The notes below the pieces were generated by a model. The model was not told the origin of the DNA and did not search any database. It saw nothing but the letters and a program-made list of their open reading frames with translations. Below, piece after piece: positions 41,821 to 45,819 of a DNA stretch of 45,819 nt (its first letter is position 1; each line of letters starts with the position of its first letter). A program made the position numbers and the translations under genes. The stretch comes from Acidobacteriota bacterium (GTDB lineage Bacteria; Acidobacteriota; Terriglobia; Acidiferrales; UBA7541), in NCBI GenBank assembly GCA_003224525.1, contig QHZB01000232.1, forward strand, positions 1-45,819, read 5' to 3'.

Positions 41821-42028
41821 GACGTTTCACGACGTCCTTCAGCGGGATGGTCTGGTCTTCACCGCTACGGATGCGTTCCAGCGCGCCTTCAGCCAGATAC
41901 ATGTCCTCGAGATCCTCCAAGTGTTCGAGGATAGCTTCACGGACATAGTAGGTTTTGGTGCGCCCGGTGCGCCGGGCCAGCTTCTCAAGTCGTTTTTCAA
42001 TGGACTGCGGCAGTCGAATAGCCAGCAT
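41804..42028 (-). CDS. ribbon-helix-helix antitoxin (RelB/CopG-like)
   Basis: A 74-residue protein starting at 42028 (GAGG five bases upstream), not at the longer frame's ATG at 42073. The N-terminal ribbon-helix-helix reads MLAIRLPQSIEKRLEKLARR with TKTYYVREAILEHLEDLED, a typical DNA-binding dimer, and the C-terminal tail (ERIRSGEDQTIPLKDVVKRH) would wrap the toxin. It overlaps the truncated toxin by 17 bp. The palindrome at 42038-42053 is the probable operator for autorepression. With the toxin broken, it is an orphan antitoxin that may still act as a repressor. Confidence 0.88.
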   Translation of the reverse strand: MLAIRLPQSIEKRLEKLARRTGRTKTYYVREAILEHLEDLEDMYLAEGALERIRSGEDQTIPLKDVVKRHGLQR

Positions 42029-42037
42029 AAGTGCCTC

Positions 42038-42053
42038 GCTATACAAGTATAGC
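42038..42053. promoter_or_regulatory. operator/promoter palindrome of the antitoxin
   Basis: GCTATAC-AA-GTATAGC is a 7-bp perfect inverted repeat 10 bp upstream of the antitoxin ATG. On the minus strand it also contains TATACT-like -10 sequence, so binding by the ribbon-helix-helix dimer would block transcription. Confidence 0.7.
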
Positions 42054-42133
42054 ACACCGTGAAGGTGGATCAAGGTGAGGGCGAACCTGGCGAAGGGCGG
42101 CGTGGATTAGTTGGAAGCCTTACACACAAGCGC

Positions 42134-42694
42134 TTATCTGTAAAACAGAACTTTCCCGGAAGGATTGAGTTGTTGCAGGAAATCAAAATCAAGAACATTG
42201 CGGGTGAGCACGGAGCAGCCATGCTTTCTAGCTGTGGCGAATAGCAAGGCATTGTTCAACACCCGGCGTCGCTGGTCGCTCCTGTATCCCTGCAGCCGGG
42301 CGAGTGTACCGGACAGCATTCCCGCTTCTCGCCATATTTCAGAATCAGTTGCGAGTGTGCGATGGCTTGGCCGCCGTTCGATCACCGCAACAACCTGTTC
42401 CATGATCCCGCGTGTCTGCGCATGTGCGGGGTCAAGTAGACCGCAGGTTGCCGCTAGTTCCGCTTCTGTTACAGGCGAATGCCACGCCTGGGCCGCCCGG
42501 AGCAAGGCGTCTCCCCTTCGTGGAAAGCGGTTCTGGAGAATGTCGATATAAACCGTGGTGTCGTACAGCAGCTTGGTGGTCCGACTGCCGGCGGACTCGA
42601 TGAAGTCGAGTTCCGATTCGGGGCGCGGTTTGAGCGGTGTTCGGTGCTTTTCGAGCTTAAGACGTCTAAGGGTGCTCTGAAATTCAGAATTCAA
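42134..42694 (-). CDS. PIN-domain toxin, VapC-like
   Basis: The frame is open further upstream, but the likely start is a TTG at 42694, inside the end of the antitoxin gene and preceded by GAGG, giving 186 residues. The PIN core reads KLLYDTTVYIDILQNRFP (first Asp), VTEAELAATCGLL (Glu), ALLFATARKHGCSVLTRN and VLDFDFL (final Asp pair). This matches VapC-type ribonucleases that cleave tRNA or other RNA. An extra N-terminal segment of about 35 residues precedes the core. It overlaps its antitoxin partner by 11 bp, the classic arrangement. Confidence 0.8.
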   Translation of the reverse strand: MNSEFQSTLRRLKLEKHRTPLKPRPESELDFIESAGSRTTKLLYDTTVYIDILQNRFPRRGDALLRAAQAWHSPVTEAELAATCGLLDPAHAQTRGIMEQVVAVIERRPSHRTLATDSEIWREAGMLSGTLARLQGYRSDQRRRVLNNALLFATARKHGCSVLTRNVLDFDFLQQLNPSGKVLFYR

Positions 42695-42992
42695 GGTCAG
42701 CCTCGTGGTCGATGGTGCCACGGCGAGCAAGCAGCCACTCAGCGTAGTCGTCAGCGACCGCAATGTTAGCCAACGCCAGCTCGATGAGATCGGTATCAGA
42801 AACAACTCCGGTGCGCTTCTTTGCCTGCGCCACCAGGGCCTTAGGCATTCTACCCCGGACCACTTGGTTCCTTTCCCCGCGCAACAGGCCTTGCTCTTCG
42901 GCGATGACCATCACCTCACGGAGCTTACGCGGTCCGCTAATGCGCGTGCTTTTTCCTATTCTCGAAGTTGCAGATTGAGCGACACGTTTCAT
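42684..42992 (-). CDS. antitoxin partner of the VapC-like toxin
   Basis: A 102-residue basic protein with AGGAG about 7 bp before its ATG. The centre (VVRGRMPKALVAQAKKRTG, then VSDTDLIELALANIA) has the strand-helix-helix pattern of ribbon-helix-helix DNA-binding antitoxins, and the C-terminal DDYAEWLLARRG is the toxin-binding tail type. The gene lies directly upstream of, and overlaps, the PIN toxin. Two copies of TGTAGCACACA upstream are candidate operator sites. It resembles antitoxins of PIN pairs, though the exact family name is not certain. Confidence 0.7.
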   Translation of the reverse strand: MKRVAQSATSRIGKSTRISGPRKLREVMVIAEEQGLLRGERNQVVRGRMPKALVAQAKKRTGVVSDTDLIELALANIAVADDYAEWLLARRGTIDHEADLEF

Positions 42993-43017
42993 ACTGTTCT
43001 CCTAGCTTTGCTATTCT

Positions 43018-43049
43018 GTAGCACACACTAGCCTTTATTGTAGCACACA
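43018..43049. promoter_or_regulatory. direct-repeat operator upstream of the VapBC-like pair
   Basis: TGTAGCACACA occurs at 43018-43028 and 43039-43049, spaced 21 bp, i.e. two helical turns on one DNA face, within 60 bp of the antitoxin start. This suits cooperative binding by an antitoxin dimer. Confidence 0.6.
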
Positions 43050-43153
43050 TCTCGACATTTCATTTGGAGGTGGATCGAATCCAGCCGTGACCATCGCAAC
43101 ATCCCTCGAGGGTGAATTCCTTAGCCTTCATGCTGACAGCCCACAGAACAAGC

Positions 43154-43197
43154 ATCCCAAGCTTCGGACGTGGGTTCGATTCCCATCGCCCGCTCCA
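43154..43197 (+). pseudogene. 3' half of tRNA-Gly(CCC): probable attachment-site remnant
   Basis: The segment reads anticodon loop ATCCCAA (anticodon CCC) at 43154-43160, 3' anticodon strand GCTTC, variable loop GGAC, T arm GTGGG-TTCGATT-CCCAT at 43170-43186, acceptor 3' strand CGCCCGC, discriminator T and CCA at 43195-43197. The 5' acceptor strand GCGGGCG and a D arm are not found in the preceding 90 bp; the bases before the loop (CAAGC) pair only partly. A complete gene is therefore absent, and this is again a half tRNA starting at the anticodon loop. It lies at the right edge of the toxin-antitoxin/polysaccharide island. Confidence 0.75.
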
Positions 43198-43314
43198 TAA
43201 AGCCTGTTGATGCAGTTGGCTTTGAGCGGTGAAAGCTACGAACCGGAAGAAGGAGTGAATCGCGGCCAACCGAACGTTCCGGCGGCCACCATTTACGATA
43301 CAAGTAGGCAGGCT

Positions 43315-43806
43315 CTACCGCCGGCGATGTTCATGTTCGTTGATGAAATCGCTCAGCTTCTCCGGATCGATTTTCACCTGCATCACCACCGCTTCATCAG
43401 GTTCCACGCTCACCAGCAGCAGCTTCATGTCATTGCCGTCGGCTTTGGCGTAAATGTAGGTATGCTCGCCGCTGCGGCGCGAGAAGCTTCTCACCAGCGG
43501 CTGCCAGCCGGACGAGCCCGCTTGCTGCACCAGCTCGTCCAGCCGGTTATCCAGTTCCGGCCCGGACAAATGCTGGTCCTCAAAAATGGCTATTTTGAAG
43601 AGTTTCACCCCGCCTACGTGCGTGCACTTCACCACCACTCCCGCAAACGACATCAAAAACCGGTAATTCCGATGCACGTGATACTCCGCTTCGATGTGCC
43701 GCACGATTCTCCCGAAGTCGTCCGCACTCAGGTCTTCCGCAAGCGCGAAAAAGCCGAAGATGATAAGCAACAGGCTGGCCGCCCGGTTTACGCTAGCTGT
43801 TGTCAT
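43315..43806 (-). CDS. DUF4252 protein (copy A)
   Basis: A 163-residue exported protein with a signal peptide (ASLLLIIFGFFALAEDLSA) and a DUF4252 domain (FKIAIFEDQHLSGPELDNRL, then SGEHTYIYAKADGNDMKLLL). It ends VKIDPEKLSDFINEHEHRRR, the native C-terminus of this gene. It starts with an ATG overlapping the stop of the upstream chimeric gene. All but the last 17 codons are contained in a 925-bp segment repeated exactly upstream. DUF4252 genes often follow an ECF sigma factor and anti-sigma in this phylum; the molecular role is not known. Confidence 0.82.
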   Translation of the reverse strand: MTTASVNRAASLLLIIFGFFALAEDLSADDFGRIVRHIEAEYHVHRNYRFLMSFAGVVVKCTHVGGVKLFKIAIFEDQHLSGPELDNRLDELVQQAGSSGWQPLVRSFSRRSGEHTYIYAKADGNDMKLLLVSVEPDEAVVMQVKIDPEKLSDFINEHEHRRR

Positions 43807-45215
43807 GGGACGCCTCCGGTGATGTCCTTTTCTTGGGATGTTCTTTCTCTTTGTTCTCGGGAATCCCGAATTTTCCGCCCAGAGCGCTCAGCTTATCCAG
43901 GTCCACCGGGCCGACAATATTCACCACCGTCAGCTCCTTCGGTTCGGCCACCAAGATCGCGATGCCCGCAATGTTATTGTGGGCGTCTTTCATTACGTAA
44001 ATCTCGTTGTTCTCATTGGCGCGCTTGTCCCGGTTTTCCACGATTTTGCTCCAGCCCGGTGCGGCAAGCTGCGTGCGGATTTCCTCCACATCGGCGGCGC
44101 TGTACTGATTCGGCTGCTCGAATTCGAAGTTCTTAACGTAAATTCCCTTCAGATTCTTGATGAGGTCTTTTGCCTGGCCGCTTTCCGGATCGTCCTTATC
44201 CATATCCAGAAACTTTGCCGCCAGTTGCAGCATGTCGCCATCGAGCGTCACGTTGTTGACCTCCACCGCCTTGGCGCTCAGCTTTTCCAGATCGATTTTC
44301 ACCTGCATCACCACCGCTTCATCAGGTTCCACGCTCACCAGCAGCAGCTTCATGTCATTGCCGTCGGCTTTGGCGTAAATGTAGGTATGCTCGCCGCTGC
44401 GGCGCGAGAAGCTTCTCACCAGCGGCTGCCAGCCGGACGAGCCCGCTTGCTGCACCAGCTCGTCCAGCCGGTTATCCAGTTCCGGCCCGGACAAATGCTG
44501 GTCCTCAAAAATGGCTATTTTGAAGAGTTTCACCCCGCCTACGTGCGTGCACTTCACCACCACTCCCGCAAACGACATCAAAAACCGGTAATTCCGATGC
44601 ACGTGATACTCCGCTTCGATGTGCCGCACGATTCTCCCGAAGTCGTCCGCACTCAGGTCTTCCGCAAGCGCGAAAAAGCCGAAGATGATAAGCAACAGGC
44701 TGGCCGCCCGGTTTACGCTAGCTGTTGTCATGGGACGCCTCCGGTGATGTCCTTTTCTTGGGATGTTCTTTCTCTTTGTTCTCGGGAATCCCGAATTTTC
44801 CGCCCAGAGCGCTCAGCTTATCCAGGTCCACCGGGCCGACAATATTCACCACCGTCAGCTCCTTCGGTTCGGCCACCAAGATCGCGATGCCCGCAATGTT
44901 ATTGTGGGCGTCTTTCATTACGTAAATCTCGTTGTTCTCATTGGCGCGCTTGTCCCGGTTTTCCACGATTTTGCTCCAGCCCGGTGCGGCAAGCTGCGTG
45001 CGGATTTCCTCCACATCGGCGGCGCTGTACTGATTCGGCTGCTCGAATTCGAAGTTCTTAACGTAAATTCCCTTCAGATTCTTGATGAGGTCTTTTGCCT
45101 GGCCGCTTTCCGGATCGTCCTTATCCATATCCAGAAACTTTGCCGCCAGTTGCAGCATGTCGCCATCGAGCGTCACGTTGTTGACCTCCACCGCCTTGGC
45201 GCTCAGCTTTTCCAG
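43366..45215. repeat. perfect 925-bp tandem duplication
   Basis: 43366-44290 and 44291-45215 are abutting direct repeats, identical everywhere I compared them. The unit runs from within the last codons of DUF4252 gene A to within the first codons after the signal of gene B. The join (ATCGATC|TGGAAAAG on the minus strand) shows almost no overlap, while both parents share AAGCTGAGCG just beside it. Confidence 0.9.
43793..44731 (-). CDS. chimeric two-domain DUF4252 protein created by tandem duplication
   Basis: A 312-residue fusion. Residues 1-149 are identical to DUF4252 copy A including its signal peptide, up to VVMQVKID; from LEKLSAKAVEVNNVTLDGD on, it is identical to copy B without its signal. 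The joint falls in KID-LEKLS, keeping the frame, so a double-DUF4252 secreted protein is predicted. Start and stop overlap the flanking genes by 14 bp, as in the parent arrangement. Nothing is lost: intact B lies upstream and intact A downstream. The exact identity means the event is very recent or an assembly error. Confidence 0.75.
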   Translation of the reverse strand: MTTASVNRAASLLLIIFGFFALAEDLSADDFGRIVRHIEAEYHVHRNYRFLMSFAGVVVKCTHVGGVKLFKIAIFEDQHLSGPELDNRLDELVQQAGSSGWQPLVRSFSRRSGEHTYIYAKADGNDMKLLLVSVEPDEAVVMQVKIDLEKLSAKAVEVNNVTLDGDMLQLAAKFLDMDKDDPESGQAKDLIKNLKGIYVKNFEFEQPNQYSAADVEEIRTQLAAPGWSKIVENRDKRANENNEIYVMKDAHNNIAGIAILVAEPKELTVVNIVGPVDLDKLSALGGKFGIPENKEKEHPKKRTSPEASHDNS

Positions 45216-45326
45216 GTGATCCAGCTTCAACCGCGCATCCTGCGCGCTTGCGGGAAGCGCCACGCAGAACAACGCCAGTCCCACAAGAAGCCCGACCAAT
45301 CCATTCCTTCTCTCAACGATTCTCAT
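44718..45326 (-). CDS. DUF4252 protein (copy B)
   Basis: A 202-residue exported protein: signal peptide (GLVGLLVGLALFCVALPASA, cleaved near ASAQD), then LDHLEKLSAKAVEVNNVTLD and the DUF4252 core (LIKNLKGIYVKNFEFEQPNQ, AADVEEIRTQLAAPGWSKIV, EIYVMKDAHNNIAGIAILVA). It ends in a Lys/Glu-rich tail (NKEKEHPKKRTSPEASHDNS). It starts 21 bp after the anti-sigma-like gene and overlaps the next gene by 14 bp. A role in an ECF-controlled envelope response is inferred from position only. Confidence 0.85.
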   Translation of the reverse strand: MRIVERRNGLVGLLVGLALFCVALPASAQDARLKLDHLEKLSAKAVEVNNVTLDGDMLQLAAKFLDMDKDDPESGQAKDLIKNLKGIYVKNFEFEQPNQYSAADVEEIRTQLAAPGWSKIVENRDKRANENNEIYVMKDAHNNIAGIAILVAEPKELTVVNIVGPVDLDKLSALGGKFGIPENKEKEHPKKRTSPEASHDNS

Positions 45327-45347
45327 AGCCTTATCTCCTCAGTTCAC

Positions 45348-45704
45348 TTACGGGGCCTGCGACGTCTTCACTCGTTCGATAACGTGGTTCAACTTCGCGT
45401 TCGTAATGCGCAACGCCACCAGCGCTTGCTGCTTCGCGGCTTCTCCTTCCCGCCACCCCTGAACGTTTCGGTAGTGCAAAAAGCCCAACGAGCCGCCCAC
45501 GATCAGCATCGCGGCAACAGCGCTCGTCAGCGCGGGCCGCAACCAACGCCTGTGCCAGAGTTCGCCGAGCCGGCTTGCGGTTCTTGGGGCAGCCGTGACT
45601 CGCGCTTGTCGTTGAATGACATGCGCCATCACTCTCTCGGTAAATGGTTCGCCCGGATCCTTCCGCCGCAGTGCAGCGCTAAGATCGTCTTCAGAAAATT
45701 GCAT
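45348..45704 (-). CDS. single-TM anti-sigma-like protein
   Basis: A 118-residue protein with an N-terminal cytoplasmic part (EDDLSAALRRKDPGEPFTER, then VMAHVIQR), one membrane helix (PALTSAVAAMLIVGGSLGFL) and a short periplasmic helix (AAKQQALVALRITNAKLNHV). The start overlaps the stop of the upstream ECF sigma gene by 14 bp, the usual place for an anti-sigma factor. No zinc-binding anti-sigma motif is present, so the assignment is by position and topology. It probably holds the sigma factor at the membrane. Confidence 0.7.
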   Translation of the reverse strand: MQFSEDDLSAALRRKDPGEPFTERVMAHVIQRQARVTAAPRTASRLGELWHRRWLRPALTSAVAAMLIVGGSLGFLHYRNVQGWREGEAAKQQALVALRITNAKLNHVIERVKTSQAP

Positions 45705-45819
45705 AACGTGCCTCTTTCAATTTGCGCGTCAACTTTCCCCGCAGTTCCTCAAGCGTGCGGTGAAGTGTGCTCTTCACTGTGTTCACCGGCATGTTCAGGA
45801 GTTCTGCGATTTCGCCCGG
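45691..45819 (-). CDS. ECF sigma factor, C-terminal part (window edge)
   Basis: Only the last 42 residues are inside the window: PGEIAELLNMPVNTVKSTLH, the helix-turn-helix of sigma region 4, followed by RTLEELRGKLTRKLKEARYA. The HTH helix (MPVNTVKSTLHRT) recognises the -35 element. The gene continues beyond the right edge. It heads the leftward operon with the anti-sigma-like and DUF4252 genes. Confidence 0.85.
   Translation of the reverse strand, partial: PGEIAELLNMPVNTVKSTLHRTLEELRGKLTRKLKEARYAIF

Follow-up and report, generated by a model that had tools for sequence, protein, structure and literature searches.

The locus studied here raises the question whether an exact tandem repeat, lying near the end of a draft contig and joining two neighbouring genes in one reading frame, is a real and recent duplication or a product of assembly, and by which route it could have arisen. 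The window, that is, the whole stretch of DNA analysed (45,819 nucleotides), is the complete contig C441 of a soil Acidobacteriota draft genome consisting of 516 contigs (6.47 Mb, 98.15% complete, 2.8% contamination). The features of the locus are given in Table 1.

Table 1. Features of the duplicated locus, in window positions
Feature	Position	Strand	Remarks
Gene A	43315..43806	-	163 aa; DUF4252-like; intact; full-length single-copy orthologue in the sister species G017, 3 aa differences
A-type 16-mer, left edge of unit	43350..43365	.	codes EKLS near the C-terminus of gene A
Duplication unit, copy 1	43366..44290	-	925 bp; covers the initial 441 bp of gene A plus the fusion's B half
Fusion gene	43793..44731	-	312 aa; in frame; two DUF4252 stretches
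Novel junction	44275..44290	.	B-type 16-mer, then A-type sequence; crossover at base 44290
Duplication unit, copy 2	44291..45215	-	925 bp; covers the fusion's A half plus the final 498 bp of gene B
Gene B	44718..45326	-	202 aa; DUF4252; intact; leader-like N-terminus; 2 aa differences from G017
B-type 16-mer, right edge of unit	45200..45215	.	codes EKLS just past the leader-like stretch of B
Putative anti-sigma factor	45348..45704	-	118 aa; weak NCBIfam anti-sigma match (1.8e-4); same position in 29/29 relatives' loci
ECF sigma factor gene, 3' end	45691..45819	-	cut by contig end; whole gene on contig C453 (L003:429-1058)

The 925-bp repeat and the fused gene

Alignment of the two copies revealed 0 mismatches in 925 positions, and the copies abut with no spacer between them, in agreement with a preliminary description of this DNA which had reported an exact tandem duplication. 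Since the period-925 run extends over 926 bases (43365-44290 against 44290-45215), the phase of the unit is ambiguous by one base. A repeat scan of the same genome covered 81 unmasked stretches with 848,975 called bases (stretches were taken from 101 of the 516 contigs, 20 were masked, and long contigs except the window were included up to 20 kb). No other exact direct repeat exceeding 156 bp was present in these sequences, and chance is therefore excluded. The next largest direct self-match in the scanned stretches (L053:5008-6973) is 469 bp long and 95.7% identical, with a spacing of exactly 1500. A chimeric origin of the unit from two strain versions was also considered and ruled out, because the versions of the segment differ by 1.4-2.3% whereas the two copies are identical. 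A 20-bp motif occurs five times in 43349-45218 (at least 73% identity), near the ends of the DUF4252 domains and at spacings of 535 and 390, so that segments of 390, 535 or 925 bp could be duplicated or deleted in further events.

The fusion gene consists of residues 1-147 of gene A followed by residues 38-202 of gene B, without overlap between the two parts, and the peptide QVKIDLEKLSAK that spans the joint is absent from both parents. The junction thus lies inside the coding sequence of both genes and yields an in-frame product of 312 residues, as the preliminary description had read it; its statement that both parents were left intact also holds, as they match full-length genes of G017. The fusion overlaps each of its neighbours, gene B and gene A, by 14 bp, and a GGAGG sequence resembling a ribosome site precedes its ATG. 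Because the unit includes the overlap between the end of B and the start of A, both gene junctions keep this overlap together with the GGAGG-ATG start.

In the comparison with PF14060 (DUF4252), gene B scored 69.7 bits, above the curated cut-off of 23.9, and the fusion scored 89.2 bits in two stretches, while gene A alone reached 22.4 bits, just under the cut-off, and is called DUF4252-like only. The earlier naming of the product as a DUF4252 fusion is thus right for gene B and for the two stretches in the fusion, but goes too far for gene A by itself. The A and B proteins align at 28% over 68 residues (E 8e-07). Both N-termini carry, as judged by eye, leader-like hydrophobic stretches, of which the fusion would retain that of A and drop that of B. 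A search for solved structures matching gene B gave none at E up to 1.

The sequences at the edges of the unit are CGCTCAGCTTCTCCGG (A) and CGCTCAGCTTTTCCAG (B), and at the junction the B version runs directly into A sequence. These two 16-mers are identical at 14 of 16 positions, but exact identity at the crossover itself amounts to 1 bp; within the block, identity is unbroken over at most 10 bp, in a run that stops 6 bp short of the crossover. When all pairings of A and B 16-mers were scanned, the pair used was the joint best at 14/16, the remaining pairings of that score being those of A with a similar motif at the far end of B. When break points were drawn at random from the region, 2 out of 200,000 draws gave 14/16, with any draw that overran the end being passed over. 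The homology at the break points is therefore insufficient in length for ordinary homologous recombination, and with 1 bp of identity at the crossover, template switching or a different short-junction route is suggested. We consider such an event likelier than ordinary RecA crossing-over. The term "unequal recombination" in the preliminary description is accordingly only loosely right. As both stretches code EKLS in the same frame, the site of recombination accounts for the fusion being in frame.

Relatives, sister species and age of the duplication

A and B are members of an ECF sigma/anti-sigma/DUF4252/DUF4252-like operon that is common in the class. The best rows of a class search with PF14060 provided 29 loci of relatives, the sister species G017 among them. 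All 29 have the sigma factor, anti-sigma factor and B genes, and 19 have an A gene within the DNA examined; in the other 10, A may be elsewhere or absent. A and B were found in one frame in none of the 29 loci, and these relatives thus gave no sign of the fused gene as an old family trait. In the search of 399 class genomes, the fusion protein was matched in 171 at E 0.001 and PF14060 in 134, and among the matches listed the window alone matches the fusion end to end (residues 1-312). The 5' half of the ECF sigma gene had no second match in a search of the genome, in which contigs shorter than 3 kb were masked as N.

Within the genus, the proteins are encoded in one of 35 other genomes, that of G017 (contig QHYI01000008.1, 'Acidobacteria bacterium isolate gp2 AA92'), so the operon occurs in 2 of 36 genomes including the window's own. 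The remaining two DNA matches in the genus are 24-50 bp long and lie just beside a tRNA-like stretch. G017 carries B then A once, with 98.2-98.5% DNA identity over the unit and both flanks; it is thus the single-copy sister genome that the preliminary description had proposed to look for, and the single copy is taken as the ancestral state. The unit differs from G017 at 16 sites, while the two copies differ from each other at none. Had the duplication been as old as the split from G017, about as many differences would be expected between the copies, and we infer that it is young. Against G017, gene A has a pS of 0.062 and a pN of 0.008, and gene B a pS of 0.030 and a pN of 0.004; from these small counts both parents look to be under purifying selection.

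The segment bearing the operon (window 43177-45819 together with positions 1-1071 of C453/L003) is 98-99% identical to G017, whereas elsewhere G017 and the window's genome share 71-84% in long matches of the stretches tested, and the his genes of C453 match another G017 contig at 74%. This contrast suggests recent movement, and the segment has probably been moved between species a short time ago. Contamination or misbinning, the rival to this view, is weakened because in C441 as well as in C453 the segment continues into DNA divergent from G017. The left limit of the segment lies within a tRNA-Gly 3'-end fragment that recurs in genome G000 and is likely to be an attachment site for islands. 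This tRNA-Gly(CCC) fragment (43149-43230) is repeated in C33, C516 (twice), C264 (as a complete tRNA-Gly) and C214. A PIN-domain gene with a small upstream gene, resembling a toxin-antitoxin pair, adjoins it (42134-42992). At the right limit there is the remnant of a large serine recombinase (L003:1170-2261; PF07508, zinc ribbon), and 17 further matches to DNA within L003:1067-1227 occur in the genome. An Acido-Lenti-1 RNA (RF01687) is located near the G017 operon (L023:482-527); this RNA was not found in the window or C453.

Assembly and alternative readings

The preliminary description had left room for an assembly artefact, and this caveat was fair. The draft contains short N gaps, C441 ends 604 bp past the repeat, and in a draft of 516 contigs with a contig end so near, the copy number is unproven. 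The start of contig C453 lies 48 bp beyond the repeat, and positions 45263-45819 of the window overlap L003:1-557 at only 97.7% (13 of 557 positions differ). At 14 variable sites, C453 and G017 agree against the window at 9, C453 stands alone at 4 and G017 alone at 1. Such an overlap indicates either mixed strains or a segment present in two copies. Matches of 97-99% were likewise seen near the ends of other contigs (L061 with L078, and the terminal part of L063 with an internal part of L073), which favours strains over two copies of the segment.

It is conceivable that the population has one copy and that the second was introduced by the assembler or in a subsequent repair step. The N gaps, the contig end and the discordant neighbour beside the repeat are consistent with this, an exact repeat of 925 bp is hard to place twice using short reads, and a paper on genome curation counts errors in repeat number, and sequence duplicated at scaffold gaps, among the common local errors (PMC7111523). 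The Angelo grassland study describes 250-bp paired reads at about 500-bp spacing, assembled mostly with IDBA-UD (PMC6784897); if G017 stems from that study, its reads could not span 925 bp, a link suggested for G017 by its sample-style name. On the other hand, the join needed would be new sequence with 1 bp of exact overlap, coinciding with the joint best homeologous pair instead of an N, and the junction offers no assembler overlap of usable length. Moreover, at each of the 6 N gaps of at least 10 bases in the sampled contigs, the 1-kb flanks on the two sides had no 15-mer in common, and the scan described above revealed no further exact direct repeat longer than 156 bp. The junction is therefore hard to explain as an assembly error, and we regard an artefact as unlikely. 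A very recent, real tandem duplication with a short junction is in our opinion the best explanation and a probable one.

This explanation is refined, and partly overlapped, by the reading that the junction is real but varies in the population, part of which would have one copy and part two or more, the contig showing one of these states. The 97-99% matches between contigs (C441/C453 and the pairs named above) are signs of mixed strains, and direct repeats of about 925 bp are expected to change in number by recombination. No direct sign of more than one state of the locus was seen in the sample, and we hold this variant to be possible but tentative. With it included, that the duplication is real and recent may be called quite probable. 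Identity of the copies alone cannot tell youth from gene conversion, and an old duplication kept identical by conversion, with a fusion of selected function, would agree with the purifying selection suggested for the parents by the small counts. However, G017 lacks the duplication at 98% identity, as do all 29 loci, and conversion would have had to reach the last base of the unit, so this origin seems highly unlikely. Of still lower probability, and hardly to be credited, is a site-specific or transposon-borne duplication tied to the movement of the segment. The operon does lie on a probably recently moved segment, beside the tRNA-Gly fragment and the truncated serine recombinase, but the edges of the unit are inside two coding sequences, away from the segment limits at 43177 and C453:1071. 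A duplication at an element edge was ruled out, as 42000-45819 contains no inverted repeats of at least 20 bp and the two ends of the segment in G000 share no 10-mers.

Proposed origin and comparison with known systems

For the recent tandem duplication preferred here, we propose the following course. In an ancestral operon of the order sigma/anti-sigma/B/A, a DNA end, either growing or broken, would have found a partner 925 bp away through two 16-bp stretches of similar sequence. One of these follows the leader-like part of B and the other is located close to the end of A, and the two encode EKLS in the same frame. Continued copying, by template switch or RecA-independent recombination, would then have doubled B except for its first fifth and A except for its last tenth, giving B, the A-B fusion and A, each with its own start signals and 14-bp overlaps. 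The fusion would presumably be translated in the same operon as the A leader, the A domain and then the B domain without leader, and might be exported. Most likely the duplication is neutral or mildly dosage-raising, and is readily lost via recombination between the 925-bp repeats. The earlier phrase "clear example of gene birth" is not sustained, because identity of the copies speaks only for recency. We consider it very doubtful that a newly moved sigma/anti-sigma/DUF4252 operon is under remodelling in a wild soil population, with recombination between the A-end and B-start motifs serving as a built-in frame-keeping site for domain-repeat proteins, and with a 312-residue protein that is made, exported and alters the signalling of its sigma factor.

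If reads confirm the duplication, a fresh gene fusion will have been caught before its copies diverged, at a stage where the parents, the sequences at the break points and, in the sister species, the ancestral state can all still be read. The case would then also show how an in-frame fusion, otherwise an accident of one in three, becomes likely when paralogous domains carry similar motifs at their ends.

The operon resembles the clusters PG_0214-PG_0216 and PG_0985-PG_0987 of Porphyromonas gingivalis in its order of sigma factor, small protein and DUF4252 (PMC10101095). The NCBIfam models sigma_PG0214 and GFO_1090 match the sigma factor (87.8 bits, curated cut-off 130) and gene B (42.2 bits, curated cut-off 150), respectively, both below their cut-offs. 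The genes of these sigma/putative anti-sigma/DUF4252 clusters are described as rising together in one P. gingivalis mutant, and more so under peroxide (PMC10101095); unlike in those clusters, a second DUF4252-like gene follows here. In respect of mechanism, the junction is like those of microhomology or template-switch rearrangements in Escherichia coli, which are too short for homologous recombination and for which homeologous recombination or template switching is offered as a route (PMC3161906). Those cases are selected lac amplifications with accompanying changes, many of them far larger than the present one (PMC3161906).

The closest parallel is provided by sigH of Staphylococcus aureus, for which short-junction tandem duplications of roughly 1 kb per unit (1210 bp in one clone) are reported (PMC3486894). 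In both systems the original genes remain intact on both sides, the 5' part of the downstream gene is joined in frame to the 3' part of the upstream gene, and the new gene comes under the start signals of the downstream gene (PMC3486894). Four features of that type, namely a spacerless direct tandem, break points of short homology, intact parents with an in-frame chimera and a single-copy ancestor, were found at the present locus; expression of the chimera, reversibility of the duplication and independence of RecA also belong to that type. The sigH junctions use exact repeats of 7-8 bp, whereas here there is 14/16 homeology with 1 bp exact at the crossover, and the parts joined here are two paralogous domains, unlike in sigH (PMC3486894). 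The sigH events were obtained under laboratory selection, with the fusion protein seen by Western blot and reversion observed, while the present case is read from the sequence of a wild draft genome (PMC3486894). Since the mechanism has already been described in bacteria, the locus would, if confirmed, be a clean natural example and no new principle; the duplication is ordinary in kind and neat in detail.
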